In this document: positions 1,536-63,992 of the stretch, one piece after another
Numbering within the stretch: the stretch's first letter is position 1
Layout: every line of letters starts with the position of its first letter
DNA from: Polytrichum commune
Taxonomy: Eukaryota > Streptophyta > Polytrichopsida > Polytrichales > Polytrichaceae
Length of the DNA stretch: 64,000 bases
Direction of reading: 5' to 3'
Assembly: GCA_950295325.1 (NCBI GenBank)
Contig: OX485806.1
Location: forward strand, 40,238,001 to 40,302,000
Translations under genes and position numbers: made by a program
Notes under the pieces: generated by a model
Told to the model about the DNA's origin: nothing
Database searches by the model: none
Seen by the model: the letters and a program-made list of their open reading frames with translations, nothing else

Positions 1536-1775
1536 CGCCCAACAACCAATACATGGAACCTCGCGCAAGAACGCCTCCGGTTCAAAGTGCGTACTTAAGC
1601 ACGAGATTACTGTAGTACGGAAGAATTGACTTGAAGATAGCTTTGGGCTCACTCCACTTTCCTGCAAAATCATTGGAAGAAGCATGACACACGGGGTAGT
1701 TCATGGAAAATGATTCCATGGAGGAAACATTGGGGGCAACTTCTTCCCTTTATCAGTCACAAAGGCCCTCCAGAA

Positions 1776-10572: not shown

Positions 10573-11798
10573 TGTGAGCTTTAAACCCCCACCTTTAAGC
10601 ATCCTAGTCCAGGGGGGAGTCCAAGGCTAACATGTATTCCACTGATGTAGATGTGTGCACTAGTGTCTTCTCACCTCTTGAGTCAATAATGCATGGGTCA
10701 ACCGCCTTCTTTATTATTTCCGGCATTAAGTATTCATAAATACTCAAGCCTTCATTCCACACAATTCCAAACCCATTTACAAGCACAACTAAAAATCACC
10801 TACATAATTAGTTGAACTTCTACAATTCTCACCCCTAATCACCCTATAAGTCTTCTATCCTACTCACTCACCTCGGTCCTAATCCTTAACTCCTCCTCCC
10901 TTCACTAGGCTAATCAACCCTTAATTAGGTCCTGAGGCTAATTTGGCCCCTAATCCCTCCCTAATCACCCCCTGCCGTGAATGGTCACCGTGGGGCAATT
11001 TGTCCTAAGCCGACCTATGGACTCTAGACGTCACTCCCTGGTTTCTACAGTCGTCTCCAGCAGACCTCGCCTCGGCTGCTAGCCGTAACTCCCACTGTCC
11101 CTGGACAGACCAGTGACTCCCCCATTTCGGCACTGCCTCAGAGGCGGCATCCTTCCCTGTTTGAATTCTAACCTGGCCGATACTGAATCCAACTGCAAAC
11201 TCCTCCCTTGTTCCTCATAATCTTGACTGACTAGTGGTTCGGAAGTGTTTTCAAACCCAGAGCTCCCAAATGTTTTTCCTTCAACCTTTGAGCAACCCTG
11301 GCCGGGTCGCATCCACTTGAATCCCCTTCAGAGCGCAATGCCCTGCTCCTTCACCCTTGCAGGCTATCAACTCGGTTGTGCGCTCTCCTGCATTGCTCAA
11401 CTTCGGAATTCAATCCCAGCAGCCACTCCCCTCACATTCAGTATTTCCAGACGTCGCTGGGGCACCTTCCCCAATCCAGCAACCTTGTCTGGGCCGGCGT
11501 AACAATCCAGCAACCGAACCAATAAACATGACGAAGAAGGAGGCGGGCCTGCACCACCGCCGACGCCATCCTTGACCCCTGAGAGAAAACGAGAGAGAGA
11601 GGCTGCTGGAGCCCCCCCCTCCCCCCCGACTGCTAACAGCAGTTGCACCCGGAAATCTCTAGGGTCCACAGTGACCCCCTCCTTAATTGGACAGCCACAA
11701 AGCCCACTTCGGTCGATAAGACTAGTACCTAACCAAACATTCAAGCCTAAAAATTAATTAGCCCTTTACTAACCACTTTCCTAGTTCCAACTAACACT

Positions 11799-13298
11799 CA
11801 CGGGGAGGTCACTTAGTGCATTTTAAAAACGACGTGCGGCATAATATAGGGAGGATTAAAATCAATTGACATAAAAATTATAAAAGAATTCCAAATAATG
11901 AAGGGTCCATTAAAAGTACATAAGCCCATTACAAGTAAAATAGATAGGTATAAAATATGGGCCATTCCCTTTTAGTAAAAATAATATAGGGGCTGAAAAT
12001 AAGGATCTTAGGATGTATGTTTAGTAGAATCAATTTCGTACGCATGCCTCATGAGGGATGGATGAAAAATTACTCATCATTCACCCAAAAATGAATGAAA
12101 TTGGAAGCCTCAGTACAGGGAACCGGAAATTTTTTGCCAACCGTAGAAGTTGATGGGCATTCCATTTACAAGTCAACGTTTGTCTCGCAACTCAATGGTA
12201 ATGTTTTTCTATCCAAAGATAGATTAGCAAGAATTAAACATAGTATTCATTTCAACAACCATGATAATTGTCTCCAAGCAAGATCTTCATGTGGATCAAG
12301 TTTGTTATTTATAGGATCTAATTGTGGGGTGCATTTTGTCCAACGGAGCACAACAATGCTATTGTCAACTGTAAAATCCGCTGCCAAACGAAAAAGGGGA
12401 CGTTCAATGACTGATGTTAAAGCTGGAAATGCTACTAACATATTGAACGGAGTAGATTCCAGTTCATGGTGGGTGGGTAGGGTGCAGGCTATGCGGCGGC
12501 GTAATGGGAAACAATTTGGAATACTTAGGCAAGCGGTTGACCTCCTTGCTCGAACGGAGGAATCAGGGAGGAGAAATCCTAATAATCCCCACATCGAAGT
12601 AATGTTGCAATATTATAGAAAATATCCAAGCCGTAATAAATTTAAGTATGATCACACGGATAGCAAATGGATTGATGTAGATTGCATTATATCTACGGTA
12701 ACCATAAGCTACAATTCTACAAATGAGGTGTACACTCTTGATAGGAATGATTCAGAGCAACTGTCCAAGTTTGTGACAGAACGAACTATATAAGATTCAT
12801 GACCAAGCTTAAAGTGTTTCACACTATATGGTTTTGGTCTTCACTAGCATGTAAAGTGATTTTGAATAAAGGATTTTTATGGAGCGGGTGTTGTGTTTGT
12901 GAACACACACACAATCTTGTTGTGTTTGTAAACACACACTCAATCATGTTGTGTTCCATCCTAAGTCTTTTTTTTGTATTTTCACTTTAAGTTTTTGTAC
13001 TTGGTTTTTGCAATGGTACGTAATTTATATATTTTTTTGTTGTCATGCTTTTCCCATCACTTTTGCATTGCATACATTCTTAAATTCAGTTATTTTAATT
13101 AAAAGGAATATAGACTACAAAAAATTTCAATGACATGGGCATTATAAGTAATGGTAGGGTACAAAAAAATAGGTCATTTTAGAATATTATGTAATTATAG
13201 GGAGCTTTTAATTCGTGCCTTGGAGGTAAATAGCCCCTAAACAAATACCCCTCCGCCGCACGTGGTACACAAAAATCCTATTGAGTGACCTCCCCGTG
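11799..13298. mobile_element. 1.5-kb hAT-like element inside LTR H
   Basis: The TIRs are CACGGGGAGGTCACT (11799) and GAGTGACCTCCCCGTG (ending 13298), with a perfect 8-bp TSD CTAACACT on both sides (11791-11798, 13299-13306). Subterminal sequence (ACGACGTGCGGCATAATATAGG) matches the MITE at 3323-3821 and the element at 32280-34940, so all belong to one family. It encodes no recognisable transposase but carries a 232-codon ORF. Confidence 0.87.
12095..12793 (+). CDS. unrecognised 232-aa ORF carried by the hAT-like element
   Basis: The longest open frame in this region lies wholly inside the 1.5-kb TIR element. I do not recognise the family. The protein has no signal peptide or membrane segment. 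It has a basic patch (AAKRKRGRS, about residues 95-103), a WWVGRVQAMRRR segment near 128-139, and a C-terminal half rich in aromatic and charged residues (KFKYDHTDSKWIDVDCI, VYTLDRND). Such composition and the lack of stops over 700 bp suggest a once-functional domain. Because related elements nearby lack it, it may be a captured host gene fragment, or a remnant of the element's own protein. Start codon choice is uncertain. It is probably not expressed as a normal gene. Confidence 0.45.
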   Translation: MKLEASVQGTGNFLPTVEVDGHSIYKSTFVSQLNGNVFLSKDRLARIKHSIHFNNHDNCLQARSSCGSSLLFIGSNCGVHFVQRSTTMLLSTVKSAAKRKRGRSMTDVKAGNATNILNGVDSSSWWVGRVQAMRRRNGKQFGILRQAVDLLARTEESGRRNPNNPHIEVMLQYYRKYPSRNKFKYDHTDSKWIDVDCIISTVTISYNSTNEVYTLDRNDSEQLSKFVTERTI

Positions 13299-13463
13299 CT
13301 AACACTAAAGTTCTAACATCCTAACCCACACTTTTAATTTAAGTTCAATTCCTAGAATATCACTCTTTTTATGTTTTGAATTGTTTGATAAAAATCCAAA
13401 TCTAAATGCATAATATCAGTAGAAGAGGTTAAAAACACCTGTGGGCACCATGTTGGGCTCACA

Positions 13464-33022: not shown

Positions 33023-34650
33023 TGTGAGCCCAAAATGGTGCCCACATGTGGTGATTAACTCTTCGAAACCGATTTTAGTTTGACTTTGATGTGTTATGAT
33101 TATTCACAAAACATAAAAAGAGTGAAGTGTGGTTTGGATTTAAGTTTAGGCTTTAGAATGTGTTGGGTGGTTATTTCAAGGGTTAAGTTCAATAGGATAA
33201 TGCCTTGATTATGTGAGTAGGGGGTAAGGTGAAGCAAGGTGAGCTCCGCGGGTTAAATGCCCACTTTTGGATCCACCTTGTTAGTTTAGGAAGAAGGAAG
33301 CTTGGTGGATGGGGATTAGTCCCTACTTTAGAGGTGAAGGTTAAGGGATTGTGATTGGAGGTGCTAATCCTCTCACCCTATCCTCACCTCTCTCTCCCTC
33401 TCTCCCTCTCTCCCTCTTTGCTACTTAAGGTGTTTTCTCTCTCATTTACAACTCTCTCCATCAAGCGCTCTCAAGGGAGCAAGCTCTTAAGAGCTTGAGC
33501 CACGTGTGTGGGTTATTAGTTTTTAGTGAGGTTAATTAGTTAAGCTCTCTCTCTCAATGCCTCCCAAGTGAGTGAGCTCTTAGAGTTTAAGATTGCACGT
33601 GTTGATTAGTTAGTAGTTAGTGAAATTAGTGTGTTAGATTAGTTCATTAGGAGCAAAGAAAAGGAAAGAGTAAGAAAAACTTAGAAAACATTTGTTAGTG
33701 AATGAAGGGGTTTGTATTAAGGAGCAACTAGTAGGTGGGTTACCCATTCGGGTATTGGAGGCCGTGGCCAGATTGCAGCTGGGCTGCTGGTTACTTAGAC
33801 AGCCCGAGGCCGTGGCCAACTGCAGCTGGGCTGCTGGTTTACTTAGGCAGCCCAAGGCCGTGGCCAACTGCAGCTGGGCTGCTGGTTACTGAGACAGCCT
33901 AAGGCCGTGGCCAACTGCAGCTGGGCTGCTGGTTACTTAGGCAGCTGGAGGCCGTGGCCAACTGCAGTTGGGCTGCTGGTTTACTTAGGCAGCTAGAGGC
34001 CGTGGCCAACTGCAGCTGGGCTGCTGGTTTACTTAGGCAGCCCGAGGCCATGGCTAACTGCAGCTGGGCTGCTGGTTTACTTAGGCAGACCGAGGCCGTG
34101 GCCAGATTGCAGCTGCGAGGCTTAGCAACAAACCACCAATATGATATCTAGGGGTTAGCAAGGCTACGCCCAATTAGTGGGTGTTAGCACATAAAAAACT
34201 AGATTACATTAGACCATTTTAGGGGTGGCTAAGTAGTTAGACCCATTAGGCTAGTTTGTGCTACGTGTGGGTTTGTATGAGTGTGTTTAGCCGTTGAGTA
34301 AAGTGTTTTTCAACACTTGAACCTCCCGGTCAAAATAACTCACTTGCATTATTAATGGAGAATGTGGAAGACTCTTGCAATGACAAGAAAAAAGAAGTGA
34401 AGGTTAAACGAGCGAGAGGAATGTCCTTAAGGGCATGTGTGGCTAAAGCCGCTGGGTGGACTCTTGAGAAGGCCAACTCTAGTACAAGCCAAGAGGCTAA
34501 CATTAATAAAGCACAATGAGTGGAAACAATATGTGTTCTTTTGGACATAAAAATTACTTTGCACATGGTTCAAGGTTGTAAGAGATACATGTGATTCTCA
34601 AAGCCATCACCCGGACTAGGACGCTTAAGGGTGGTGGATTTGGCCTCACA
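33023..34650 (+). mobile_element. solo LTR A
   Basis: TGTGAGCCCAAAATGGTGCC at the start and GGATTTGGCCTCACA at the end. A TA-poor promoter-like stretch with CTACTTAAGG is near 33420, after a CTCCCTCTCTCCCTCT tract. The 3' end has the family hairpin CACCC...GGGTG (about 34608-34633). No matching 5-bp TSD is seen (GCTTA, GCGAT), suggesting a boundary mutation or a recombinant between two insertions. The first 700 bp are nearly identical to LTR B. Confidence 0.72.
33760..34118. repeat. 47-bp minisatellite in LTR A, eight units
   Basis: Units begin GGCCGTGGCCAACTGCAGC and continue through GGGCTGCTGG and ACTTAGGCAGCC. Seven units are near full length and the last is cut short. Unit length is 47-48 bp, with mostly single-base differences. 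Confidence 0.95.
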
Positions 34651-34940
34651 GCGATGGTATGAATAATCATGCCTTTTTGTTGCCATGTTTTTTTGCACCA
34701 CTTTTTCAATCTGTATACTTTTGAATTGTTATTATCTTAATTATAAGGAATATAGAATACCAAAATATACAATAACCTTGGCAATATAACTAATGGTAGG
34801 GTGGAATAAAATAGGTCATTATAGAGAATTAAGTAATCATAGGGAGCTTCTAAATCATGCCATGGAGGTAAGTAACCCTCACACAAATAGCCCTTAACTA
34901 CACATGGTGCACAAAACTCCTCTAGAGTGACCTACTCAAT

Positions 34941-35960
34941 ACTACGTATACATATGCTACACAAATATAAATCTCAGTTATGTACATGAATGGAGGACCT
35001 TTATAGAATATATAGCATTTGTACTTGTGGTAGGGTCACTAGATTTTATGGGATAAGTGTATAATATTGGATGAAACTAGGATTACTAATTTTCTCATTT
35101 CCTTATCTCATCCATGTATGTATGGAGGAGATAATATTAGGGTTTTGAAAGGGGTAGTTGAGTAGAAAACAAGGCCACTTCTTGCTTAGGGTTGCAAGAG
35201 AACAACCGGTGCTTCTTTGTGGGGCTTCTTTCTGGTTGATGCCTTCATTAGATCATGGGCAACATCGAAATTGCAAAGGTGTTGATTCCCAAGTAGGTTT
35301 TCTCTCAATCATTTCCACATCATTAGTAAACCTCCAATGTGTGCAACTATTTGGATCAAGCATTTAGGGATCGCAATTGTTGCAAGTTCTAGGATCAACC
35401 ATGGAGATTGGTTTATTGTGCTATAAAAAAGGAAGCAAAAATAAGTGGACTTTTAATTAGATGGATCAATTGATGGTATATTTAAAAACAATAATTGCAT
35501 TAGCTTCTATAACATTTATTGTAGACTTAGATGCTTATGGGTCACATTTGAGGGATGAAAAGTTCTTTAATGACTTCATTATTGAATGCTAGGGTTTTAC
35601 ATTATAGATATGATAGGGGTTCGTTATTATACAAAAGTATATTTGTATACTTATATTAATGACTATATATGATTGTGATTTTTTTTGGTATTCATTTGGC
35701 CCTTGGATTTTTATCATTGAAATTGTATGTATATTGCACCCTCCAGACTAAAACCAACATGCCACCCAAAACCAACACCTTCAAATCTTTAACAATTTTG
35801 ACAAATATTAACTAATGCATATTGATTATGAAAATGTCCACCACCTTAACAAGCTCCCATTCAGTTTTGGGTCATCTACCAATAAGGATTAGGATAGTGG
35901 CTCATACTAGGGGATAGCGAGTGTTTATTGACACAAGACTCTACTTTGAACCCTTATGAC
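34941..35960. other. intergenic, no gene seen
   Basis: AT-rich sequence. From about 35800 it aligns, inverted, with 24890-24990, so it is part of that dispersed repeat. No gene recognised. Confidence 0.5.
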
Positions 35961-36111
35961 CACTATAAGGTTCACAGGTCGGTAGCATGGGTTTTCGGTC
36001 ACTCGATGTAGATTTTAGATATTCAAATATATTGGCATAATAGATTTGAATATCTAAAATTTACCTCAAGTGACGGAAAACTAGTTCTAATGTCCTGTGA
36101 TCCTTGTAGTG
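35961..36111. mobile_element. short CACTA-like fold-back sequence
   Basis: It runs from CACTATAAGG to CCTTGTAGTG, 151 bp. The arms fold on TTTAGATATTCAAAT and ATTTGAATATCTAAA around 36015-36060. Same family as 24541-24892 but with a much shorter interior. Because flanks are also shared between the two sites, independent insertion is not proven. Confidence 0.5.
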
Positions 36112-36341
36112 AACTGTTGCATACGAAATTCAAATAGAACGTACTTTAGTGCGTTAGAAATCCCTTTCATTTAGTAAGACTTTCTACATCTAAAGTTATC
36201 CATTCTCAGTGATTAAAGTGAATTTTTTAGCACCACTTATCTTGTACACAGAATTATCACATGATGGTAGAGAGAGAGAGAGATTTACAGTTTAGTTGTG
36301 TGTGATGTATTGTCATTAAGTGTTATAAGATGGTTATTCTG

Positions 36342-36587
36342 GGCCGGGGATTCGTGGCACTCAAGTAAAATCATCCGTGCGGATGAAAAAAACACAAGAA
36401 TCATCTAAATGGCTATTTTTGGACAAATTGATTCCGGAAATAGAGTCAAAGGCCCCGAATTAGTGTAGTGACGTCACATTCGAATGAATCGGCCCTCAAC
36501 CCCATAGGGGGGTTTTTTTTATTGGAGCCACTTCATCCACGATATCTTGGATGGATGATTTTACTTGAGTGCCACGAATCCCCAGCC
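36342..36587. mobile_element. Mutator-like MITE, 9-bp TSD
   Basis: Long TIRs of about 34 bp (GGCCGGGGATTCGTGGCACT ... and its inverse ending CCACGAATCCCCAGCC) bound 246 bp. A perfect 9-bp duplication GTTATTCTG flanks it (36333-36341, 36588-36596). A 9-bp TSD with long TIRs is the Mutator pattern. One terminus of a second copy (GAGTGCCATGAATCCCCGGCC-like) is seen near 51670-51690. Confidence 0.9.
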
Positions 36588-36954
36588 GTTATTCTGTTCG
36601 TGTACATGTATCCTGTAATCACAATGGTGACTGCAATGTATGTAAGTTAGCTCAGCCATGTAAGTGAGTTTCAAAAATTTCTCCTTGAAGTAATAAATTA
36701 TAGTTTTCTCATTCATTGCGAAGTTGTTTGAAACACAATCTTGCACACACGTGCATATATAGATATACATGAGAAACAATCGAGACATGAGACTACTTAA
36801 GGACATGCTTTTCAAATTTAGAACAAAGAAAACACAAATATATATTCAGTGTGACTTAATAAAGCGATTCGGACGGGCAACACTAACCAATTTGGCACAA
36901 ATACATGTCATCACAATAAGAAATTGGACCAAATATTAAACCATTTGTATTTAT

Positions 36955-38050
36955 TTTGAGATTTTTCAAAGTCTCCGATTAACGAATATAATGATAATTG
37001 TTGCATATCTTTGGACATGAAGCCTTCTCTTATCTTTCAAAATTCAATTGAAGACGTGCGCCCATGTGGAATAATTCTAATGTTACTATCCGGATTACAT
37101 AAGAATTACTCCATCTGCATGGGGACTTATACATAGGCTACTCAAGAATGTTATGCATGCACGACCCAACATAATCCCAAGATGAATAAGATAAGGCCCA
37201 AAGCGTTATATCAGTTTGGGCCCTTTGATGGACCACAAGGAATTGTAGTATATTACTAGATTGTTGGTATAGATGATATGTTAAATTATAGTATGCAAGT
37301 ATCTCCACCTTAGATGAGCATCTAGGTTAACTCCTCCAAACGTCTTAGGTATTGAAACTCATATGCATGTTTTCTTAGAATATATATAGTCTTAAACATG
37401 CTTACGATGTGAAAGCAACTCCAGAACAAATGCTTCTTAGAACTGACATATCAATAATAATAGTGTTTTAAAGCACTAGCTCGATTCATGTGCATTTAGC
37501 CCTCAATATGGCCCGACTTTATGAATTTTATAAGGCTCAACCTTGTCATATGTAAAGTGATGAGGCCCAATTGTTTCAAGCCAACCTGAAGCTTTGATGT
37601 CAAAATTGTGCCACCCAAGATAACACATGGAATGAGTAAGTGTTTGGACCCAACCCTAGTATAAACCTCATTGACCGGATTTGATGAAACAATGTTGTCT
37701 TATTGGACCAAGTTTGTAGAGTTTAAGCCGACCCTCAATCTTGCCCCAAGTATAAAATGGGCCTTAATATGTATATATTTCTTTGTTTGCTTGATGATAC
37801 TGTTATGTAAGTGTAATTAGATGATGAATACAATCAAGCCATGGGTATAACAACAAACTCCAAGCTTTGGACAACTTATCCTAAACCAAAGCTTGCAAGA
37901 CCTTCAACAACCAATGCACATAGACGTCATACTCCTGTATCTGCAATTTTTTTATAACAACAAAACGCAGCCATTGGCAAAAAAATCAATGGGAATCTCT
38001 GATTGGGCACTCGATTCTTTAATCTGTAGACCCGATTCATAGACAACAAG
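36955..38050 (+). repeat. dispersed repeat R1, copy b, internally deleted
   Basis: Aligns with copy c at 52190-54060. Between ACGAATATA (about 37000) and TTGTTGCATATC it lacks about 600 bp present in the other two copies. No coding sequence is recognised. Confidence 0.65.
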
Positions 38051-39045
38051 GGGAGTGACAAGAAATTTGATATAATTTTGAGGGTGCCAATCAAGCCTAG
38101 TCAGTTTTTATGCGAGAATGAAAATTGAAAAGTTGGAAAACCTCCATGAAATTCCATCTTGATGTATCCTTTCAAAGCGTAACTTGAAGTGGCCTTCTTT
38201 AATAGCATGTTGTACCTTCAAGGTTTCATACCCTTTAGAACTGCTTGGCTATTTTACAACACCTTGTTTATATTACCTACAAAATTGTGCAATAAATTGT
38301 AAGTACTTGGAAAGCACACACTTCACAATTCTACCTTCACTTCCTACAAGTTACATCTCTTCACTGATTTACACTATAGACTCCCAGCTTATACAAAAAA
38401 ATTTGGCCTCAAAGGTTGTGTGAGGCCAAATCCACCACCCTTAAGCGTCCTAGTCCAGGTGATGACTTTGAGAATCACACTTATCTATTACAACATTGAA
38501 CCATGTGCAAGGTAATTTTCATGTCCAAATGAACATGTATTGTCTCACTCATTGTACTTTATTAATGTTGGCCTCTTGGCTTGTGCTAGAGTTGGCTTTC
38601 TCAAGAGTCCAACCCGCGGCCGTGGCCACACATGCCTTTAAAGACATCCCCCTCGCAACCTTTGGCCTAACCTCCTTTGTCTCGTCATCGCGGGGGTCAT
38701 CCACCTTCTCCATTAATAATGCAAGTGATTTATTTGCCCAATAAGATGCGAGTGTTCAAAAACATTGTTCTTACTAGTCCACCCCAATTACATTTACTAG
38801 CAAGCCACACCTCACACTACCTAGCCTAATAAGTCTAAAACTTACATATGCACTAGAATAATCTAAAATGCATAACTTGCCCTATGCTTAGTTTTAATGA
38901 TAATGTTCGATTTGGGCTAAGCTTTAGGCCCCTAAACCCATTCCTCGGTAACCCAGCTTAAACCAACCATCCAGGTTCCCTTAAAGTTGACCTTCGCTTT
39001 CACCACTTCAATGAGCTGGTCTCGGCCCTTTCGGCTACTGAGATA

Positions 39046-39797
39046 ACGAGCCTTGGGAGGCCCCTGGACTAGCAGTCCCGGCAGCAGTTGAGCCTGGGAG
39101 GCCCTGGACTAAGCAATCCCGGCAGCAGTTGAGCCTTGGGAGGCCCCTGGACTAGCAGTCCCGGCAGCAGTTGAGCCTTGGGAGGCCCCTGGACTAAGCA
39201 GTCCCGGCAACAGTTGAGCCTTGGGAGGCCCCTGGACTAGTAGTCCCGGCAGCCACGGGTAGATCACTCCATTGTCAAGTTGAACATCACGTGCGACCAA
39301 AAAAAATCTTCTTTTGGTAAGTTGCACCACCAAAATGGGTCAAAATTTTATCAAATTTTTTTCATGAGTAGATATACACAGTACCTATGACATACTTAAA
39401 AATAGTAACGAAATTTGATGATTTGTTTTTTTTCATAAAACATACCGTTTCTAACTAGAATGACACAGAATTGAACTAAAAAAATTACTAAAAAAAATAA
39501 AGATGACTAAAAATTTCAGAAAACTATTCAAAAGTTACTATCAATGGTTATGTATATGTAGAAAAAAAATCATAAATTTTAAAATTATATATGGCATGTA
39601 ATATAGGGGTAGCAAACTTTGTCCGCACGTGGTGTTCAATTTGACAAGGAGTGATCTACCCGTGCCGGCAGCAGTTGAGCCTGGGAGGCCCTGGACTAAG
39701 CAGTCCCGGCAGCAGTTGAGCCTGGGAGGCCCTGGACTAAGCAGTCCCGGCAGCAATTGAGCCTTGGGAGGCCCCTGGACCAGCAGTCCCGGCAGCA
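39046..39797. repeat. 41-bp minisatellite in LTR B, split by a MITE
   Basis: Units contain GGAGGCCCCTGGACTAGC, AGTCCCGGCAGCAGTTGAG and CCTTG, 38-42 bp long. About five units lie at 39046-39253 and about three to four at 39665-39797. The MITE at 39254-39664 separates them. Confidence 0.9.
39254..39664. mobile_element. hAT-like MITE in LTR B
   Basis: A 411-bp element with TIRs CACGGGTAGATCACTCC and GGAGTGATCTACCCGTG, perfect 17-bp inverses. The TSD is a perfect 8 bp, CCGGCAGC (39246-39253, 39665-39672). Same family as 3323-3821. Non-coding. Confidence 0.92.
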
Positions 39798-40650
39798 GTT
39801 GATGAAATCAACACCAAACTAATTTCAACTCTAGTGCTTAATCAATTGCTCATCTAAGCCTCTTAACTAATGAATGCACACCTCCCACTAAATTAATCCA
39901 ATCTAACCACTACTCATGAGCTTAGTCCAATGACTCTAAGCTTCCCCTACTCATAAGAGGGATTAACTTCCTAACTTCACTATAACTAACTAATCCACAC
40001 ATAAGCCTCAAACTCTAAGAGCTCGCTCCCCTTGAGAGGATTTGAGAGGGAGAGCTTAACTACTTAACTTCACTAAAACTAATGACCCACACACGTGGCT
40101 CAAGCTCTTAAGAGCTTGCTCCCTTGAGAGCGCTTGATGGAGAGAGAGGCAAATGAGAGAAAAAACACCTTAAGTAGCAAAGAGGGAGAGAGGGAGAGAG
40201 GGAGAGAGAGGTGAGGATAGGGTGAGAGGATTAGCACCTCCAATCACAATCCTTTAACCCTCTCCTCCAAAGTAGGGACTAATCCCCATCCATCAAGCTT
40301 CCTTCTTCCTAAACTACCAAGGTGGATCCAAAAGTGGGCATTTAACCCGCGGAGCTCACCTTGCTTCACCTTACCCACTACTCACATAATCAAGGCATCC
40401 TCTTATTGAAATCAAACCTTGAAATAACTACACCACACATTCTAATGCCTAAACTTAAATCCACACCACACTTCACTCTTTTTATGTTTTGTGAATAATC
40501 ATAACACATCAAAGTCAAACTAAAATTGGTTTCGAAGAGTTAATCACCACATGTGGGCACCATTTTGGGCTCACAGGTTGTATTGTTATTCCCATATTAC
40601 CTTAAACTGCCCCACCATTTCTCAATTGCTTTCACTATCTATCAAGTCAC

Positions 40651-42263: not shown

Positions 42264-43124
42264 TATTCTTAACCTACATGCACTATACGCAAATTATTAG
42301 AACTAACAGTTCTTAATTGGCCTTGTTTAGTTTTTGGCAATGAAATAAAACCATATTTCATTTGTCTCAAAATACATAATTAAATAATCAGACACCTATG
42401 TTTGAGTGATACATAGCAAGGCTTTTAGTCAAGAATGAGTGCCCCCATAGATGCATGTTACAATGTGTGCTCAAATATAAGATCCACCATTCTCGATTCA
42501 ATGATAATGGGCACAATTTGGGAAGCACATGTGATCACTTAAGAAAAAATAAATTCTTCCTAATGACCTCCTCTAACTTTTGCATCTCAATTTCAATCCT
42601 AAAACCTTCAAATGTCAGTTTGCGTGATTTGCAAGTTCCCCATACGATGCAGGGTTCAAAGTTGTCTGTTGGAAGTGGCCTCATGACTCCTACATAACTC
42701 GTACATCTATTGGTCTACTACTTCCATGGAGCTTGCAAAGGGAGCAGTTACGTACATCATGAGACTCATGCCCACAATCAATCGGCATTTTGATTCCTGC
42801 CCACAACTTCTCAGTCGTCCTTTGCATGAAAAACTTCATGAAACTCAATGACTTCTACATCCAATTTACAAGACCAGACACCTGAGCATGCAATAATTCA
42901 CCTGAAAATCTATTGCAGCTAAATTTTGCTGATTGAACCCAAACTTGTTTGAAATCATCTTTGGAGAAAAAATACCTGGCAACCAGAAATTGCTCGCTGT
43001 TCTGAAACAAATACCTCCAGCAACAACAGCGTTCTTCCCTATCTGCAAAGTTTTTGCAATCTGCTCACTGGTAATTGATCACTGAGAGAGCAGCAGATTT
43101 GAATCCTGGTATGTAGCTGTCGGG

Positions 43125-43255
43125 TTATATATAGTGTATGTTACGACTCAGAGTGGCCCTAAATGTCAGTGACCTCTGTCCCAACATCTAGGGATTCGGT
43201 AGATGTGTCATTTTGACCACCAGTAGTACCATCTACAGTGTCCCTAGATTCTGGA
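43125..43255 (-). promoter_or_regulatory. promoter region of MDR copy 3
   Basis: The TATA box is at about 43125-43133 (minus strand). The dyad lies upstream: TCTAGG...GTAGATGT at about 43198-43217 and ATCTAC...CCTAGA at about 43240-43258. The region from here to the start codon mirrors 1620-2747 nearly base for base. Confidence 0.6.
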
Positions 43256-48446: not shown

Positions 48447-48756
48447 TATGAGCCCAAAATCGGGCCCACACAAGTTCTTAAACCTTAAAATCCACTAAAA
48501 CTTAGGCTTTGATTTTCATCAAATGTTCAAAAACATAAAAAGAATGAGCTTTGAATTTGGAAGTTGAATTAAGCATTAGACTAGGACTTTAGCACTTAAT
48601 TGCTAGTAAGGGAGTAGCTCAAGGTAGAATGTAGTAACCAGGCTTAGGTGTTGGGGTGTTGGGGTGTTCGTTGTGGGCAAGGGCCATGTTCGTAATGGGA
48701 GGAGGCCCTTACCCAACGGTGGGTAAGGCTCTAGATTTCCGGATCCAAGGATGAGG

Positions 48757-48800
<44 letters not shown>

Positions 48801-50088
48801 ACCAGGGCAGTCTCGGAAGGGGGGCATGGAACATTGAACTGCTGCGGCGAGGGGGAAGGGAAGGATCACCAAATTCAATGTGAGTTCCAGAGTTTGAATG
48901 TGCAGATTGAAGGTTGGGTATGCTTCAGGGAACAGGGGCGTTCGATGGGTGTAAGTGCCTTTGAGCTCTCAGGCAGGGTGAGGCCACATTAGGCGCTTAG
49001 TTGGATTGAAGGCGCTTTGGTTCACGAGGAACACAGGGAGTTGGTACAGACGGCATTGTCGCATTTCGGCTCAAGGTACTCTGAGGGCAGTGGATGGGCA
49101 CCTCAGGTCAATCCCAACTGCAAAGTTCAAAATGTGGAAGTAACAAGGGCAGCTAGGCGCAGCCAAGGGACTGGATGAAGCCACTGGAGAGGGTGGTCAC
49201 ACTCCGAATGGTTGCAAGTGCAATTAATTGGTGAGTGGTTTTGTGTGGCCTGAATATTACATTCAGGTGCAGAAGGGGAGATGCGGTTCTTCCGAGTGTG
49301 AGTGCTATGTAAGCAAGGAAGGCTGAAATGGAGGCCAGAGGCACGCCTGAATTGTTTGGCAGACTTTGATGAATTTCTGTCACATTCACTGAGACCCAAG
49401 AGAGGCATGATTTCTTGGGTGGGTACTGTGTAGCTTGAGAATGATCCAGGTTGAACCGGCAGTCGGAGTGGCGAATCTGGTGAGGCCACCAGCAGGCTCT
49501 CACAAATTGGAAGTGCCTTAGCCGAGAGCAGCTGCCGGAAGGGCACAATAGGAAGGACCTCCGAACCATGAGCTTCCACTGCCGTAAGGGGAACAAGGAG
49601 ACACTTTGATGTTGCCACGTGGCTGCAGCGACTCGGCAACTAACACGGGTGGAGAGAACTCAGCAGGAAGGAAAAACAGGGGAGGCTCAATCTGGTTGAG
49701 AGGGAGAAGGTGATTAGGCCAGTGGGAGTTAAGTAGGTTAAACCATTAATTAGGGATAACCAAGGAACTTGGTAGATTAGCATCAAGGAAGTAAGGGGAG
49801 CATCGGATAATCGGCCAAGCGAGCCACACGTGATTAGCACTAATTAGGGGGTAGAAGGTAGTTTGGAAAAAATAGATAGTTAATGTTGTAGGTTGGAAAC
49901 CATACATAAGGGGAGTGTTTCTAAACACTTGTGACCTTGTGGGCTTGAATAAAAAGTTGTGTGTTAATGTTAAAACATGGGTGCATCAGAGCTCATCTTG
50001 GAGTGACGATCAGAGTTAAGCAAGTAAGTGTGAGCCTCATGCTCCCACCCGGACTACAACACATAAGGGTGGAGGTTTAAGGCTGACA
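48447..50088 (+). mobile_element. solo LTR C
   Basis: Start TATGAGCCCAAAATCGGGCC (the usual TGTGAG with one change), end TTTAAGGCTGACA. It carries ACATAAAAAGAATGA near 48533 as in other copies, a (CT)n tract at 48757-48797 and a GC-rich centre. The 3' end has CACCCGGACTACAACAC...AAGGGTGG. No TSD recognised. ORFs of 147-170 codons at 49127-49639 are overlapping frames of the GC-rich centre and are not called. Confidence 0.72.
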
Positions 50089-50193: not shown

Positions 50194-51000
50194 TGTGAGC
50201 CCAATATGGTGCCCACATGTGTTCTTAATCCTTAGAACTCATTAGAATGTGGGTTGGATTTCTTATTAATTATATAAAAGCATAAAAAGAGTGAAAATTA
50301 ATGTTTGAATAGAATTAGGAGGTTAGCTAAAGCATTGGTGCTTGGGGGATGGTAGGATGGGCTGGAATTAATTAAAAGGGTTATAATGGGTTAGGCCTTG
50401 GGCATTCGAAGCTTGGACTTGCAACTCGGTTTTATTGGCTAAAGTAGAATTGAGTAGTGTTTGTTTTAGGGGGGGGGGCACTGGAGACCCTAGAGGAATC
50501 CGGGGCTCGGGTTTAGCAGGTAGTTGGGTTCAGCGGCTCTCTGTCTCTCTCTCTCTCACAGTAGGAAACAAGGTCTCAGGAGAACGGCAGGGATGACCAC
50601 CGAAAAACACCGAAGAATGAGAGCATGTCTGGCCACTCCGGATGGGGGAAGTCACTAAGTGGCTACAGGGGCTAAGGGCAGCCACAGCAAGGCTTCGGAA
50701 GAAGGGCTAACGAAATGCTGCACAAAAACTCCTGAGAACAAACTAAATCACATCCAGCAAGAGAAAGGGAAGGTATGTCGGGCTTCAATCGGAAGCCTGG
50801 CTGGAATGCCGGTTCCCAAGTTCGGTCTACCGGTTCCCAAGTTCGGCGGCCAAGGCGGAGGACAACAGTTCCTCAAGGTCCTTAGGTCCAGACTATGGCG
50901 CGGCGTCCCCCGGCTGCAGGGGACACCCCACGGGTGGTAGCCAACTCCAGAGAACACCCCCTCGTTGATGACAGCCCCGCCAAGAGCATTTTGAACCCCC
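50194..51000 (+). mobile_element. LTR D, 3'-truncated
   Basis: Begins TGTGAGCCCAATATGGTGCC at 50194, with GCATAAAAAGAGTGA at about 50280 and a G-run followed by CCTAGAG, as in LTR I. The normal 3' end (CACCCGGACTA...TGACA) was not found; similarity fades around 50.8-51.0 kb. CAGGTTCCCAAGTTCGG-type units recur near 50805-50840. Confidence 0.5.
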
Positions 51001-52189
51001 CGGGCAACGTCATTTTCCCCGACCCATGGACCGGCGATAGAAATGACACATTTTCGGTCCACACGCTAGTGCCTTACCTTAGAGGATTTTGTAATGTTTT
51101 TGACCTCCAAGTTAATTACGTGCTTCATTGATGGTTTCACTTCCGGAATGAAATCCCAATCAATTGCTTATTTACCAATTGGAAGTGCACATATATATTG
51201 GATTTTAGACCTTGAAGGTGAAGTGCACTCAATATGGAATTTGTAGTCAAGTGGCCTTCAAGAATGCAAGGGCAATGTTTTTTTTTGAAGTTGGGCGGGA
51301 TGGGCAACAATTCTTGATCGGGTTCAAAAACTTCTTTAGAGGGTTGCCCTAGCCCAAATTTGACACCCCCGAAAGTTCGTGAGGGGGTATTTCATGTCCG
51401 CCCATATTAATTTCTAAAAAATTGCCAGCCTAGTAATCATAGGTTGGCAACGTATGATGCAACCACTTGTTTTTATATAAGACATTTTAATTTTATCTAA
51501 CCCCCTTCGTATTATTGCCTTAAGTATTAGATTAGACTAGGATTATTTAGAACTATTAAAACTCGGTATTTTTGAAACCCTTGAGACAAGGAGCCGACGA
51601 TGTGAGGTAGTGTCTAAAGTGGTTCATCTCATCCACAAAGATGAATGAACTCTCACTAATGAAAATACATGAGTGCCATGAATCCCCGGCCCTCCGGAGA
51701 AGTGCAAGACGTTCCCTCTCACAAACGCCCTCATATTCTACTTACAATACCACCTCGTACAATTTGGGAGCGCGTCCGGAAATATGGAAGAACGACACAT
51801 ATTCCGGTCCAGTCAACAAACAAGGATGCAGTCGTGGGCCTGAGATTTTTAGAGCCATGGAGGCCGCCAAAAACAAGGACATAGACACAAAAAAAAATTT
51901 AAAAAATAGTGGGACTAGAAACGTTTATTTCAAACGTAAATATGTGTAGTGGTAGAACGTAGTGCTTGGTTCTCTATTATATCTGAATTTCTCCAAGACA
52001 TTGATGGTATTTCCATTATATTTGTATTTCAAGCCCATTTAATAGATTCAATTTGCAATCGTTGTCCTCATACTCCCTTCCATCAGCATCGATTTCTCAT
52101 TTCATACACAAATGTTCTCATGTATGCTTCATATTTGTTTCCACTTTCATGCACTTATGTCCGATAATTATATGCAAAACCTTATATAT
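51001..52189. other. repeat-derived spacer with ORF remnant
   Basis: A 102-codon frame at 51641-51949 (SRGPEIFRAMEAAKNKD near its end) resembles 13660-13720 (SRGSEIYRAMKAIKAKE), so both derive from one repeated coding sequence that I cannot name. One Mutator-MITE-like terminus lies at about 51670-51690. Confidence 0.45.
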
Positions 52190-54060: not shown

Positions 54061-54779
54061 GCTTGTGCACATGAGCGCCTTGTGAGCCCAAAAGGGTGCC
54101 CACATTTAGTCTTAGACCCTTGAAACGTTAGTTGATGCACTTTGAAGTAGCATGTTACTTCACAAAAATATAAAAAGAGTGAAATGTTAGTCTTAGAAGT
54201 ACCATGTTGTAAGAGGCTAGGATGTGAGTTGTTATTGTGTTTTTACCTTCGGAAGGATTTGAGTGAATGAGGATAGGTAAGGAGAACTTGGATTGAATAG
54301 TTAGTGAGTAGGCTAGTACAAATGGATGGAGACAACCAAAGTGACTCAAGAGGCAAGTGCATTCGAATTGGGATGAATGGAGGATCACATGGAGCGCACA
54401 AGTGGACCACCTCATCATGGCCACTTAATGGGGAAGGTCCAAGGAAGAATGCAAGGTGGAGGATAAGCAAATTCTCAAAGCACCAATCAAATCACGAGTT
54501 AAGCATCGTGGTTTGAATTAAGTGGTGAGCGACGATTTGGGAAGGTAAGGGGAGAAAGTTATGGCGGCGGAAAGCGAAGGAGGCTAAGTTTGGGTTGAAG
54601 CATCCCAAGTTTGGTAAAGTGTGGTAGGTAGAAAGCCAAGGCTAGTTAAATGTTCGAATTAGGATCCTTGTTGATCATTTGAGGGAGGAAGGCTTAGAAG
54701 ATAGGATTGGCGCCTACTAAGTAGGAGGAAATCTCAAGGGCTTATCGTGAGCCTTGAGGGTGCTCACCCCCTCAAGCTT

Positions 54780-54791
54780 ACTATATAATCC
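54780..54791 (+). promoter_or_regulatory. probable LTR promoter TATA box
   Basis: CTATATAATCCC is identical in LTR E and LTR F (58740-58751) and present inverted as TTATATAATGAG-like sequence in LTR G (about 57005-57020). The next 60 bases are also conserved. This is the usual U3/R arrangement; the transcription start is not determined. Confidence 0.5.
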
Positions 54792-55297
54792 CTCATTCTT
54801 CCCTCACTCATCCTCTCTTTCCTTTGTGCTCCAAGGCACCCCACGAGTTATAAGTGTGGGTGTGGGAAGCCATATTGGAGCACATGTGTGTGCTTAGTTT
54901 TTAGTTTGAGAGCCAAGGCTTGTTAGCCTTGAAGAGGGCTTGACCTCTTGGTAGAATTAGTGTTGACGTGAAGGATTTTAAAGTTAATTCATGATTCCAA
55001 TTTGTGGTACTTAAAGTTCATGTTTTGAATACATGTGGTTGCAAGTTCCATGTTTAAGAGTTGAGCACTTGATGTTGTGATGAGTGCAAAAATATACTTG
55101 TGTGGATTAGTTAGTCTTAGTGAAGTTAGGAAATTCTCTCTCCCCCTCTCCTCTCTAGGATTTTAGGATTTTAGGATTAGAGAAGAATTGTGTGATTAGA
55201 AAGGGGTTGTTAGTAGAATTAGGGAAATTAGGTAGGAAGATTAGTTAAGGGCTTGAATAATTAGTGAGGTAGTTGGAGATTACAACTACAAAGTTGT

Positions 55298-55618
55298 GGG
55301 TTCATGAAGGAGCTGGGTTTATGAAGGAGCTGGGTTTGTTTAGTTAGAAAGTAAAGAGCTGGGTTTATGAAGGACTTGGGTTTGTTTAGTTAGAAGCTAA
55401 GGAGCTGGGTTCATGAAGGAGCTGGGTTTATGAAGGAGCTGGGTTTGTTTAGTTAGAAGCTAAGGAGCTGGGTTCATGAAGGAGCTGGGTTTATGAAGGA
55501 GCTGGGTTTGTTTAGTTAGAAGCTAAGAAACTGGGTTTATGAAGGAGCTGGGTTTATGAAGGAGCTAGGTTTATGTAATTAGAAAGTAAAGAGATGGGTT
55601 CATGAAGGAGCTTAGTAG
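55298..55618. repeat. compound minisatellite in LTR E
   Basis: A higher-order unit of about 63 bp alternates GGAGCTGGGTTTATGAA with TTTGTTTAGTTAGAAGCTA. The short unit AGGAGCTGGGTTTATGA (about 20 bp) repeats within it. About five long units, the last ones diverged. Confidence 0.87.
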
Positions 55619-56166
55619 ATAGCCTACCTAATTAGCTCATAGACAAGTAGTTAGTTACATTATGCTAGTTAGTGTTATGTGTGGCTTTCACAAGTAAATG
55701 TATTTGAGATTGACTATAGAGAATAGTGTTTTTTTTAACACTTGCATCCTCTCTTTAAAAATAAACCACGTGCACAACTTAATGGAGAATGTGGAGCACT
55801 CTCGCGATGGCAAGACAAAGGAAGCAAAGACCAAAGTTAAATCCAAGACCACTTGAAGGGTGAACCTTGCACTATGGACTCATCCAAGTCCAAATCCAAT
55901 ACCGCGGAGGAATGTGAGCCCAAACCCACTACTCGGACTACGGACGCTTAAGGGTGGGGGGTTTGGCCTCACACGCCTACCAGCCAGTTAGCCAGGCGGT
56001 GGGCGATGGATTTCATCCGGTTGTGGATGGTGGCCCTCCTTCCGCCGGCTGTGAGAGGCGAAGCGGACCGTCTGCCCCAACCCGGAAGGGACAGATCCAC
56101 CTCCATAAGCCACAGCTAATTCCACCATTCATTATGGGAAATTTCCCCGGGAATTACCTTAACCGG

Positions 56167-57180
56167 TGTCACCCAAAGTTCCTCACCCTTGATTTCGTCC
56201 TAGTCCGAGTGCGGAATTTGGGACTAACATGTAATTACCCCCTTGCACCTGTTGTCCTAGCCTCCTTTGTCTCGCCATCTTTCGTTAGGGGTTCTCCACC
56301 CTCTCCATTGATTGTGCACTTGATTTATTTTAACCAAAAGAGTGCGAGTGTTTAAAAACACTTACCTCAATGGTCAATCACCAATACATTCAAAAGTTAC
56401 ATACACCCCTTCCTACCTAATGAATCCAACACTTTAAATCTAAACATCATAAGTCTAGAAACTATAAGAGTGAATATTATAAATCCAAATACTATAATTC
56501 CAATACTAAAAATCTAGATGCTAGAGCTAGGCACTTGTTTATGGATGCATTGAGTCTAAACCATATCTAATAATGTAAGGCTAATCTTCAAGACTAATTG
56601 ATCTTGACTCTTCACCTTATAACCTCGCACACCTACGTGTCTCTCTCTTACTCCACACACACACAAGCTTACCTACTTCAATAATGTAATTTTGTAAATC
56701 CAACAAAACTAAATGCTCCAATGTTTTACAAACATAACTTTGTAAGTCTAAATAATTATAGATGTGGATAATATAAATCCAAGCATTACAATTTGAAGAC
56801 TATAATTTAAACTCTAAACTCTTCCAAACTACACTACTCCTAACAACAAGTCAAACATACTTAAAGGCCAACTAGTCTTGGCTCTTCACCTTAAAATCAT
56901 GTACACACACGTGTTCCTATCTTGCTTCCCACACACCTACATTTATAACCCGTAAGGTGCCAAGGAGCACGAAGGAAAGAGGAAGAGAGAGGAAAGAATG
57001 AGGGCTTATATAATGAGTTGAAAGGGAGTAGGTGAGCATCCTCAAGATAAGCCTTCGTAATCCTCCCCTACTTTGTAGGCTCCCATCTTATCTTCTAAAT
57101 TTTTGTCCCTCATTTCTTATTTTCCACTTTCTATTCACTAACGCATATTAAGGGTTTAGTGAGGTACTTCACTTACAAGT
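56167..57180 (-). mobile_element. LTR G, reverse, 5'-truncated
   Basis: The left end TGTCACCCAAAG with CTCACCCTTGATTTCGTCC is the inverse of LTR F's 3' end. The inverted promoter block (GAGGGCTTATATAATGAG) is near 57000. The family 5' end (GGGCTCACA) is missing; similarity stops just before the Myb/SANT-like ORF at 57200. No gene. Confidence 0.62.
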
Positions 57181-58399: not shown

Positions 58400-60073
58400 T
58401 GTGAGCCCAAATTGATGCCCACATTGGTTGTTAACACTTGTAAAACATTACAAGTGGTGTTTTGGTGATTTATGATTATTCACAAAAATATAAAAAGAGT
58501 GAAGCTTGAAGAAAGTTTAGTTTGAAGCATTAGGCTTTTGTGGAGTGGATGTAAGTAGGAGAAGGACAAACCTTGGTAAAGTGTGGTAGGTAGAAAGCCA
58601 AGGTTAGTTAAATGTTTGAATTAGGATCCTTGTTGATCATTTGAGAGATCAAGGCTTAGGAGATAGGATTAGAGCCTACAAAGTAGGAGGAGATCTCGAG
58701 GGCTTATCGTGAGCCTTGAGGGTGCTCACCCCCTCAAACTCACTATATAATCCCTCATTCTTCCCTCACTCATCCTCTCTTCCCTTCGTGCTCCAAGGCA
58801 CCCCACGTGTTATAAGTGTGGGTGTGTTGGAAGCAAGATTGGAGCACATGTGTGTGCTTAGTTTTTAGTTGGAGAACCAAAGTTAGTTGGCCTTGAAGAG
58901 GGCTTGACCTCTTGTTAGAATTATTTTTGGTGTGAATAATTTTAAGATATTTTATGGCTTCAAGTTATAGTACTTGAGTTCATATTTCTTGGGTATTTCT
59001 TAAGTAGTCTAGGTTGTAAGGGACATAACTTCCGAGCAGAAGAAGACACTTCGTTGAAATTTAGAGGGTTAGTAAACAACTTGTTTATATGAACATGGTC
59101 AAAATCTGAGGATGTTTGGAGTACTAAAGCAGCAGTTATGACATTCTGAATTTTGCCTACATTTTCGAGCTGAAATGGGCATAACTCCTGGACAGAGGCT
59201 TGAAAATGCATGAAATTTTGAGGGATGCTTTGTTCTTAGGTTTCCTAGTTGTGGTACAAATTTCAAGTCATTCCAAATAGATGAGAAGGAGATATATCAT
59301 TCTGAAGTGTTTTGAAGAGTTGCAGACTAAAAAGGCCATAACGTTTTGGCAGAAAATGAAAATAGTTTGAAATTTCAGGGGATCATAAAAAATTAGTTTT
59401 TGTGATTGCTCCCAAAATTTGAAGTTCTTTGGAGCCTGTGAGAGGAAGTTATGAAATTCTGAAATCTGGGTAGACTGACACACTAAAATGGTTATAACTG
59501 TCGGACAGAAAATGGGATAGGCTCACAAATTGGTGAGATGTTTTTTGCTTTGTCTCCCTAGTTACAGAGAGAATTTCAGGACATTCCGAGAAGTAATGGG
59601 AAAGTTACACTATTAGCTAGTAAAGTCTAGGGGAACAAAGAAAGTTTGCTTGGTTCCATTAGGGATAACCATTAGTTCATTAAACCAATATAGTGGTTGA
59701 AGCGTGAGGAGAAAAGTACAATAAGTGACAAGTATTTATCAAAACTTAAACTTGTGTAATTCATGAAATCAATAAGCGAGAACTCATGTAGTAGTGTGGA
59801 GTCGACGGCAAGGACTCCCTTCACAAGAGGGATATCTTTGAAGGCATGCGTAGCCAAAGCGGCCGGGTGGACTTTAGAGAAGTACAAGGATGTGACATTA
59901 CCCGAGATTAAGGAGTGTAAGAAAACATAATATAGACTTGGCTAAGTTGTGTATATTCCAACGATAGATTGGAATCATACATTGTGTTATAAAGAGAGAA
60001 ATCTCTACATGTCATTATAAACTTCTCTATTCGGGCTAGGACGAAATTGAAGGGTGGAGACTTTTTGGTGACA
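58400..60073 (+). mobile_element. solo LTR F, TSD AGTGC
   Basis: TGTGAGCCCAAATTGATGCC to TTTTTGGTGACA, with perfect AGTGC duplications at 58395-58399 and 60074-60078. The left duplication is made of the last bases of the CACTA-like terminus. The TATA block is at 58740. Downstream is a decayed tandem array rather than a sharp minisatellite. Confidence 0.88.
59025..59615. repeat. decayed array of about 155-bp units in LTR F
   Basis: Four diverged units start at about 59028, 59173, 59336 and 59491. Each begins with a CATAAC/TATAAC(T)-CC-GGCAGA-type box, then has GAAATTT..GGG and ATTCTGAA or ATTCCGAG before the next unit. Identity is low but order is kept. Confidence 0.65.
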
Positions 60074-62335: not shown

Positions 62336-63992
62336 TGTGAGCCCAAAATCATGTGCCACATATGTTTTTAAGCTAGGAAGTTATTAAAAATTAGGATTGG
62401 ATTCTTCATTGATTGTTTCTAAAATATAAAAAGAATGAAACCTTAAACGTAGGCTAAGTTGAGTTTAAACGATTGGCGGGGGAGTTACCATGGGGCTTAG
62501 GGGGTTAGAAGAGTTTATGTGGGAATTAATTAGATATGGATTAATCTTTGAGTAGTAGGGACATGACTTAGGCTTGCACCCGTCTTGGGTTGTTTGATTA
62601 AGCCAAGTCACTGTTCATTTAAGCTTAATGCTATGCTGTTTAGAAAAGGGGGGGGGGGTCTGTTCAACCGGATCGCCCTAGAGATTCTCGGGACAGAGAA
62701 GGGTGGCCAGGGAAGACCGTAGCTCGGGATTTAGTCTCTCTCTCCAACTGGCGGTGAAGGGGGCTGCCTCAACCAAGGCGAGGTCCTGCGGGGACCAACC
62801 AACCATCTCCTGATTTTGTTGGTAGGTACGAGTGAGGGGGATGCCGAAGGAGGGGAGGACTGGTGTGGCCACCAGCCTGGGATTAGGAAAACGGGGTTGA
62901 CATTCGAATGCCAGAGACAGCTGCCGACTGCAATGAAACTTCAGCAGGCAAGGAGGTGAGAGGTGTGGATTCTCCACAAGGGCAATGGAAGCGGGTAATG
63001 AGAGTGGAAGGCCGCCGCAAGGTCGCAACAGGCTCAACCGGGAAGCGGTGGAATTCGCCATTACAACCAAGCCAGAAGACAGGAGGCTTAGAGTTGAATC
63101 CTGAAGGGAGCTGGAGGCATTCGAGGACAATGTAGTATGTCTCACTTCACAACGAACAAGGGAGGAGAGGAGGTAATATAATCCGCAATCAAAGGTCCAA
63201 AAATTGATGTTGTAGGGAGTGTGAAAATTCAAGGGCCAATTTGAAGGTCTGTTCCGGCATTGGCCGAGCACCCAGGAAGTGTTGCCTTTTCGGCGGAGGC
63301 GGTTTGGATGCGGAGGGGATTGTTGGCACTGCATGGGATTCATCCATGTTGATACCAGAGGGAGTTAGCGCCGAGGCAGTAGAATTTGATCGAACTCCAA
63401 AGGGCCGAGTGGGTCTGAAGCAAGACTTGCACACAAGCGGCCACCGCGGCTGGATGGCCTGTGGGCTTCCTGCGCTGAGGACTGAAGCAACTGCAGCCGT
63501 GATTACTGGACTTAGGCACCTGGCAGGGGAGACCACCGAGGGTCCAGCAAGGTCAAGCTTGGGTTTAAGGTTACTCAAACAGGGTTAGGCCGTAAGCCCA
63601 GTAATTAAGGGGTAGGGGTGGCCAAGATTTGGGGTAGTGGTTAGCGGCTTGTTAGACAGTTACTAGGGCATAAGCTAGGAGTTAGGGACTGATAAGAGCC
63701 AGCCATTGTGATAAGTGTTATCATCTCTTGGCTATTGGGTTGGATTAGGGCAGTACTTAGCCACAGTGTGTGTGATTGTTGTTTATTGATTTAAGAATGA
63801 CCATGAGGGAGCTAAGTGTTTTTAAATACTTGGATCCTAGGGGCATTGAATAAAGAATTGAGTTTCGTATAATTGTATTGGGCCAAGGCAAGAGGCCAAG
63901 CCGCAAGGACTCAGTGGTGTGAAACGGATACATGTGAGCCTGAGGCCCTCACCTGGACTACAACGCACAAGGGTGGGGGTTTAGGGCTGACA
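62336..63992 (+). mobile_element. solo LTR I, TSD CACCA
   Basis: TGTGAGCCCAAAATCATGTG to TTTAGGGCTGACA, with perfect CACCA at 62331-62335 and 63993-63997. It shares AATATAAAAAGAATGA, the G-run, CCTAGAG and the 3' CACCTGGACTACAACGC...AAGGGTGGGGG with LTRs C, D and H, forming a GC-rich subfamily ending TGACA. A 221-codon minus ORF (62678-63343) overlaps a plus ORF and is not called a gene. Confidence 0.88.

Follow-up and report, generated by a model that had tools for sequence, protein, structure and literature searches.

Ty3/gypsy retrotransposons of the moss Polytrichum commune carry a fast-changing tandem array inside their long terminal repeats

A 64,000-nucleotide stretch of the genome of the moss Polytrichum commune (assembly GCA_950295325.1, contig OX485806.1, positions 40,238,001 to 40,302,000, forward strand; hereafter the window) contains nine copies of one long terminal repeat (LTR) family, designated A, B, C, D, E, F, G, I and J. 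Comparison of these copies with their relatives in the same genome (407.8 Mb, the sample for all surveys below) revealed that in the clade of A and B a tandem array is a resident part of the LTR, and that the structure of this array changes far faster than the sequences flanking it. The LTR is modular, and consists of bases 1 to ~480 (the promoter side, U3-like), a GC-rich minisatellite, a short reading frame in the A/B clade, and the LTR end.

The family LTR begins with TGTGAGCCCAAAATGGTGCCCACA and ends in ...GGGTGGTGGATTTGGCCTCACA, or variants of either, LTR F ending in ...GGTGACA. Seven of the nine window copies are complete (A, B, C, E, F, I and J), and five of these (B, C, E, F and J) are flanked by identical 5-bp target duplications, identifying them as solo LTRs. 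No matching 5-bp duplication was found for I or for A, whose flanking 5-mers are GCTTA and GCGAT; an earlier sequence-only reading of the window had called A and B solo LTRs, and of these two only B has the matching duplication. Between subfamilies mainly the first ~105 bp and the last ~60 bp can be aligned, with longer shared stretches in some pairs (E/F, 417 columns at 89%; A/E, 182 at 73%).

A and B share 607 bp on their 5’ side (563 of 608 columns identical, 92.6%), in agreement with the near-identity of their front parts noted earlier, and 423 aligned columns on their 3’ side at 80.6% identity. A bases 608–1214 cannot be aligned with their B counterpart, and the arrays sit in this interval, with 48-bp units in A and 42-bp units in B. 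With a third unit of its own in E, the earlier description of different arrays in the same interval is borne out. The “decayed 155-bp array” proposed for F was also recovered, as similarity at offsets 156/157 and 313 (period ~156 bp): in five of six block pairs, 0–1 of 200 mononucleotide shuffles reached the observed score, the sixth pair (offset 469) was at chance level, and the repeat is not reported by Tandem Repeats Finder (TRF). The complete copies C, I and J, which belong to more distant subfamilies, have no TRF array of their own; an insertion within C holds a 29-bp TRF array. The claim that the same conserved flanks border the A and B arrays did not hold, since ~130 bp before and ~120 bp after the A array cannot be aligned; between A and one genomic copy (L042) the shared flanks nearly reach the arrays. 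An older duplication of ~93 bp, probably common to A and B, lies just 5’ of the array region (LTR B 446–613 and its A counterpart).

To call the A and B arrays unrelated, as the sequence-only reading had done, is too strong. Their consensus units align in register on the sense strand (AACTGCAGCTGGG-CTGCTGGT versus AACTGCTGCCGGGACTGCTAGT), with a local score reached by 2 of 500 dinucleotide shuffles for one B consensus and 8 of 500 for the other, and a global rotated score reached by 2 and 46 of 500, depending on the B consensus; the antisense comparison was at chance level. Searched against whole LTRs, the A unit scored 44 in B (maximum of 30 shuffles, 30) and 40 in J (shuffle maximum 32), the B unit scored 52 in A (shuffle maximum 40), and the E unit was borderline in A (36; shuffle maximum 34). 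This test is imperfectly clean, as the A unit also exceeded all 30 shuffles on the antisense strand of B (34) and of A itself (38). With nhmmer, a profile of A-type units matched B only at E 0.5 or worse, and a two-unit profile matched J at 63489–63593 (E 2.9e-5). We regard the A and B units as probably distantly related, short of proof.

Genomic copies were collected by a search with the LTR 5’ end (1313 loose candidates, 40 scored) and a search with the short reading frame (1739 loose candidates, 150 scored). The 31 A/B-clade copies that were read comprise A, B and 29 others (L022–L050) selected by similarity to A bases 1–480, and all 31 hold an array within LTR positions ~640–1530. Sorting of the internal repeats gave 14 unit classes among 33 arrays, so that one shared ancestral array, the alternative raised in the earlier reading, is not borne out; its suggestion of fast repeat replacement is well supported by these classes and by the rearrangement of arrays at 1–6 flank substitutions described below. 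Identical 5-bp flanks were found for 22 of the 30 single copies with both ends seen.

A 19-mer from the A unit occurs 46 times in the genome, at 13 places, and its reversed-pattern control not at all. All 12 places outside the window are A-type LTRs (two cut at the 5’ end, one interrupted; one of them, L017, is the same copy as L025). Because every place is an LTR of the family, the possibility that the A array is a dispersed satellite was ruled out. Eight loci found via the B frame, one of them B itself, are all B-type, with about 4–9 units. A-type and B-type, the two subfamilies checked, each have their own unit class, with varying copy number. The arrays were also rejected as coding sequence, on unit lengths such as 28, 32, 35, 43 and 44 bp, which are not multiples of three; a scarcity of ATG within them is only suggestive.

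Seven pairs of frame matches, 8.7–9.8 kb apart and in the same orientation, mark full-length elements E1–E7, of a subfamily with 35-bp units, and with these full-length copies the possibility that the repeats are something other than LTRs was rejected. In E1, E2, E3, E5 and E6, both LTRs have the form TGTGAG...CTCACA and the element is flanked by identical 5-bp target duplications; the LTR pairs of the elements with target duplications are 99.9–100% identical. The array sits inside both LTRs of the full-length elements. Internal domains were read from one piece of E1 and one of E2, each containing several frames that were searched separately. The E1 piece (L065) matched the Pfam domains RVT_1, RT_RNaseH, Integrase_H2C2 and rve, and the E2 piece (L066) matched Retrotrans_gag (E 1e-4, just under the curated cut-off). 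The full-length relatives are Ty3/gypsy elements, with the order reverse transcriptase, RNase H, integrase and a gag-like frame upstream. This domain order excludes a Tnt1-like (Ty1/copia) identity, and the placement typical of Tat/Ogre elements was also rejected, the array lying inside the LTRs and not between the coding region and the 3’ LTR. No chromodomain was matched in the E1 integrase C-terminal frame (149 amino acids) at E up to 1, and no second, archaeal-type RNase H in the E1 and E2 pieces searched, which cover part of the internal region.

The primer site of a retrotransposon is expected to begin with TGG. In E1–E3 the 5’ LTR is followed by TAAT and then by TGGTGCGTCCGCCGGGAG (one base different in E3), which begins with TGG; no tRNA was matched. 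By eye, no polypurine run was seen at the 3’ LTR border of E1–E3 in the 120 bases before it, which end in ...TTCATCCCCCGATGGTCGCCAATTA. The internal region begins with TAATTGG (L060, L061 and L063) and ends with CCAATTA (L059, L062 and L064), an inverted match beside the primer site.

The full-length elements allowed array change to be set against flank change. Within each of E1, E2, E3, E5 and E6, the two LTRs differ by 0–2 flank substitutions, and their arrays are of equal length (0 or 1 substitution). Between these five elements there are 1–6 flank substitutions in ~1169 bases, and the arrays differ in all ten comparisons, in one case at equal length with 23 mismatches. In E1 the array is built from a 141-bp higher-order block, present 2.8 times with a 100% match. 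Among pairs with at most two flank substitutions, arrays differ in three of three comparisons between elements and in two of seven within elements.

The first ~480 bp of the LTR have a history unlike that of the rest, and behave as a separately moving module. The B-type set of nine copies (B itself, L035, recovered through its 5’ end, and seven recovered through the frame) diverges by 3.07% over bases 1–481, by 0.59% between base 481 and the array, and by 1.17% beyond the array; in 32 of its 36 pairs the first segment diverges most. The A-type set of ten copies (A plus nine recovered through the unit; the interrupted or truncated copies L009, L014 and L016 were excluded) diverges by 3.41, 2.59 and 1.52% across the same three segments, with the first highest in 27 of 45 pairs; the pair L015/L020 is discordant (1.3%, then 5.2%). 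A two-rate changepoint was found in 29 of 81 pairs at a gain over 6, a self-set threshold used without a permutation control on pairs that share copies and are not independent. Sixteen of these changepoints fall at 420–480, seven at 300–360 and six elsewhere, and in all 29 pairs the left side is the more divergent. The divergence profile falls likewise after 480, 28 of the 31 profiled copies having been chosen by the stretch before that point. Two copies are mosaics: L051 combines a B-type body with a first ~480 bp of a different kind, and in L049 the switch falls about midway along the sequence that follows the array.

Downstream of the array, a short frame of 54–75 codons was seen in all 32 A/B-clade copies (the 31 above and E2), called by a script rule in 28, by frame reading in L037, L038 and L047, and in L027 cut at the end of the fetched sequence. 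A stricter core pattern, with G first, is present in 27 of 33 copies including F of the window, the misses being L027 and five copies with R in that position. Over 18 distinct cores the ratio of nonsynonymous to synonymous polymorphism (pN/pS) is 0.118, with 5, 7 and 16 variable sites at the first, second and third codon positions; the cores of A and F differ by 12 nucleotide and 2 amino-acid changes in 19 codons (P 0.0002 under random placement). This pattern is that of a core under strong purifying constraint. To our knowledge, an LTR-encoded frame with such a core is unusual. Searches of the frame against Pfam and PDB returned only chance-level matches. One group of copies has an in-frame N-terminal duplication of the frame, giving 74 amino acids.

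We consider it probable that the arrays lie in the transcribed part of the LTR and are remade at reverse transcription, that template switching exchanges the promoter half, and that arrays sometimes change after insertion. The steps proposed here are modelled on the standard retroviral cycle. By eye, the uniform half stops a little beyond TACTTAAG and a CT-rich tract at ~400, and the frame is closely preceded by an AAATAA motif near 1311. Transcription starting at ~400–480 would place the array in R, the part of the LTR repeated at both transcript ends. Misaligned first-strand transfer, with slippage among repeats, could then add or remove units in a single cycle, and such a change would normally be the same in both LTRs. 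Intermolecular transfer near the U3/R border would place U3 from one RNA ahead of the array-and-frame half of a second, co-packaged RNA, and the outcome would be near-identical front halves with different arrays. Unit classes would diverge because rounds of unit loss and gain carry a changed unit across the array. Arrays may sometimes be altered after insertion too.

Several observations weigh against this account. The E4 LTR pair has 21.9 and 11.9 array copies with zero substitutions in 1039 aligned flank bases, and the E7 pair differs by one 35-bp unit with 2 flank substitutions; since these arrays differ within an element, change is not confined to replication, although the 5’ flank of E4 and the 3’ flank of E7 lie outside the sequence obtained, so that each is taken as a single element without target-duplication proof. 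Replication-time and post-insertion change are separated weakly, by few pairs. The changepoints at 300–360 fall upstream of the presumed start site, and the borders of U3, R and U5 are themselves placed from sequence features. Selection of L022–L050 by A bases 1–480 inflates the contrast between 5’ and 3’ parts in that set; the A-type and B-type segment sets were mostly chosen otherwise, yet the third B-type segment contains the frame used to pick seven of its copies. The frame core is missing from C, D, E, G, I and J of the window: E and G show a frame start or remnants only, and in the other four no frame was seen. Frame and LTR are therefore not invariably associated.

The unequal E4 and E7 pairs would also be expected if arrays change chiefly once the element has been inserted in the chromosome, whether through replication slippage, through unequal exchange or through conversion among dispersed LTRs, with no special role for the replication cycle. 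L010 and L011, which lie 110 kb apart on one contig (C1) and share flanks and target duplication, have arrays that differ by 48 bp, one unit, and represent either an assembly effect or a segmental duplication whose array changed afterwards; if the latter, a one-unit difference arose after duplication of the same insertion. Mainly chromosomal change is nevertheless unlikely, because array length is unchanged in five of the seven LTR pairs, yet elements 1–2 flank substitutions apart are rearranged, and because each subfamily shows a single unit class across many sites (12 loci of A-type and 8 of B-type, B among them). That the family depends on having some GC-rich array, whether for an enhancer, a leader structure or a packaging signal, with its presence and not its sequence under selection, is possible though doubtful. 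All 31 A/B-clade copies read do have an array, but C, I and J are without TRF arrays, a strong common RNA fold was rejected on mixed z-scores (sense z between −3.9 and 1.5 across 13 classes, with no consistent excess in strength over shuffles), and the sense-strand excess may simply stem from common descent. Least probable is the insertion of unrelated satellites at one hotspot, or their capture from elsewhere, in each subfamily: the A 19-mer is found only in LTRs of the family, the A and B units can be aligned on the sense strand, J holds a single-copy relative of the A unit, and L026 (54-bp units) and L023 (39-bp units) have nearly the same flanks and, by eye, a unit stretch in common. Remaking of arrays at reverse transcription also admits a bolder version, which we think rather unlikely as a whole. 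In it the family would rewrite an R-region tandem cassette in nearly every replication cycle, with a conserved LTR microprotein of 54–75 amino acids (or a peptide-sensing upstream frame) behind it; as a leader that changes quickly, the array would act, for example, against sequence-specific small-RNA silencing, and the promoter and microprotein halves would be reassorted by strand transfer between co-packaged RNAs.

The positions of the LTR copies and their parts are collected in Table 1. The ~1.5-kb insertion in LTR C (about 11804–13289) has inverted ends GGGGAGGTCACT and contains a 232-amino-acid open frame (12095–12793) with no Pfam match, and the insertion in the B array has imperfect terminal inverted repeats of roughly 45 bp. 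Elsewhere in the window, three related copies of a gene region (1614–4927, 15886–18691 and 40635–43421) are 70–91% alike and lie in both orientations, a frame at 4069–4866 in that region matching a Pfam zinc-binding dehydrogenase. Another dispersed repeat (13889–15472, 36995–38046 and 52289–54058) is 76–89% alike, also in both orientations, and an open frame at 6328–7209 on the minus strand matches Pfam DUF7869 (E 2.8e-37). Rfam and tRNA scans of the window gave no matches.

Table 1 LTR copies of the family in the window and the features within them.
Feature	Position	Strand	Evidence
LTR A, lone copy, 1628 bp, TGTGAG...CTCACA	33023..34650	+	pairwise alignment; no matching target duplication
A array, 7.5 units of 48 bp	33758..34115	+	TRF
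A short reading frame, 54 amino acids, MENVEDSC...INKAQ	34355..34519	+	intact in A and in 12 of 12 A-type copies fetched
LTR B, solo LTR, 2157 bp	38419..40575	-	target duplication CAACC on either side (element strand)
B array, part toward 3’ end, 4.9 units of 42 bp	39048..39253	-	TRF
Insertion of 411 bp resembling a miniature inverted-repeat transposable element, with terminal inverted repeats, within B array	39254..39664	.	sequence comparison
B array, part toward 5’ end, 3.3 units of 41 bp	39665..39802	-	TRF
B short reading frame, 54 amino acids	38549..38713	-	open reading frame reading
LTR E, solo LTR, related subfamily	54081..55973	+	target duplication CGCCT
E array, 17/46/63-bp units	55297..55612	+	TRF
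LTR F, solo LTR	58400..60073	+	target duplication AGTGC
F decayed tandem repeat, period ~156 bp	59000..59650 (nominal limits)	+	shuffle-tested block similarity
F short reading frame, 55 amino acids, core RGISLKACVAKAAGWTLEK	59763..59930	+	open reading frame reading
LTR J, solo LTR, no TRF array	62336..63992	+	target duplication CACCA
J single-copy relative of A repeat unit	63489..63523	+	nhmmer E 2.3e-4 (one-unit profile)
LTR C, solo LTR, ~1.5-kb insertion inside, no TRF array of its own	10573..13463	-	target duplication TTCTT
LTR I, no target duplication; only tandem array (CT)20	48447..50088	+	TRF, flank comparison
LTR D, 5’ end only; 3’ end not found	50194..51990 (right limit nominal)	+	end search
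LTR G, partial 3’ piece	56150..57140 (nominal limits)	-	alignment

Tandem repeats in LTRs have precedents. ERV9 and similar animal LTRs carry a U3 repeat of variable number and a single unit type; the moss family resembles them in the copy-number variation of an LTR tandem repeat and differs in having many unit classes in one clade. Tobacco Tnt1, a Ty1/copia element, varies in U3, where its promoter lies; the moss elements are Ty3/gypsy, with a uniform first ~480 bp and the array after it. U3 tandem repeats and “quasispecies” variability are mentioned for Tnt1 (PMC3601003). Like the moss family, it has tandem repeats in its LTR, and its subfamilies are distinguished by one portion of the LTR. 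Other tandem repeats in or derived from LTRs include mouse MaLR Ms6-hm and Hm-2, potato LTR-derived satellites, and CRM1/CRM4 (PMC9659126); as summarised there, these involve one or few repeats per element, unlike the many classes at one LTR position seen here. Soybean Gmr9/GmOgre, a Ty3/gypsy element, has five minisatellite families with copy-number variation, for which reverse transcriptase slippage was considered (PMC3305785, in the sections on these repeats); its minisatellites, unlike ours, are placed between the 3’ untranslated region (UTR) and the LTR of an element >21 kb long (PMC9659126). The closest known system appears to be that of the Tat-lineage Ty3/gypsy elements (Ogre; Macas et al. 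2009), whose 3’ UTRs hold hypervariable tandem repeats (PMC7004042, PMC9659126). As portrayed in the relevant passages of these sources, they share with the moss family tandem repeats that occupy one place in related plant LTR retrotransposons but differ in the sequence and length of the monomer. Their arrays lie in the 3’ UTR downstream of gag-pol, whereas ours lie inside the LTR and are therefore present in both LTRs and in solo LTRs; the moss LTR also has a conserved frame, of which those passages make no mention for Tat/Ogre.

The origin of hypervariable retrotransposon arrays is described as unresolved in the portion of PMC7004042 that deals with them. In the moss family each full-length copy carries two arrays, expected to be identical or nearly so at birth, so that replication-time change and later change can be separated by counting, and recent insertions are present among the many candidate copies in one genome.

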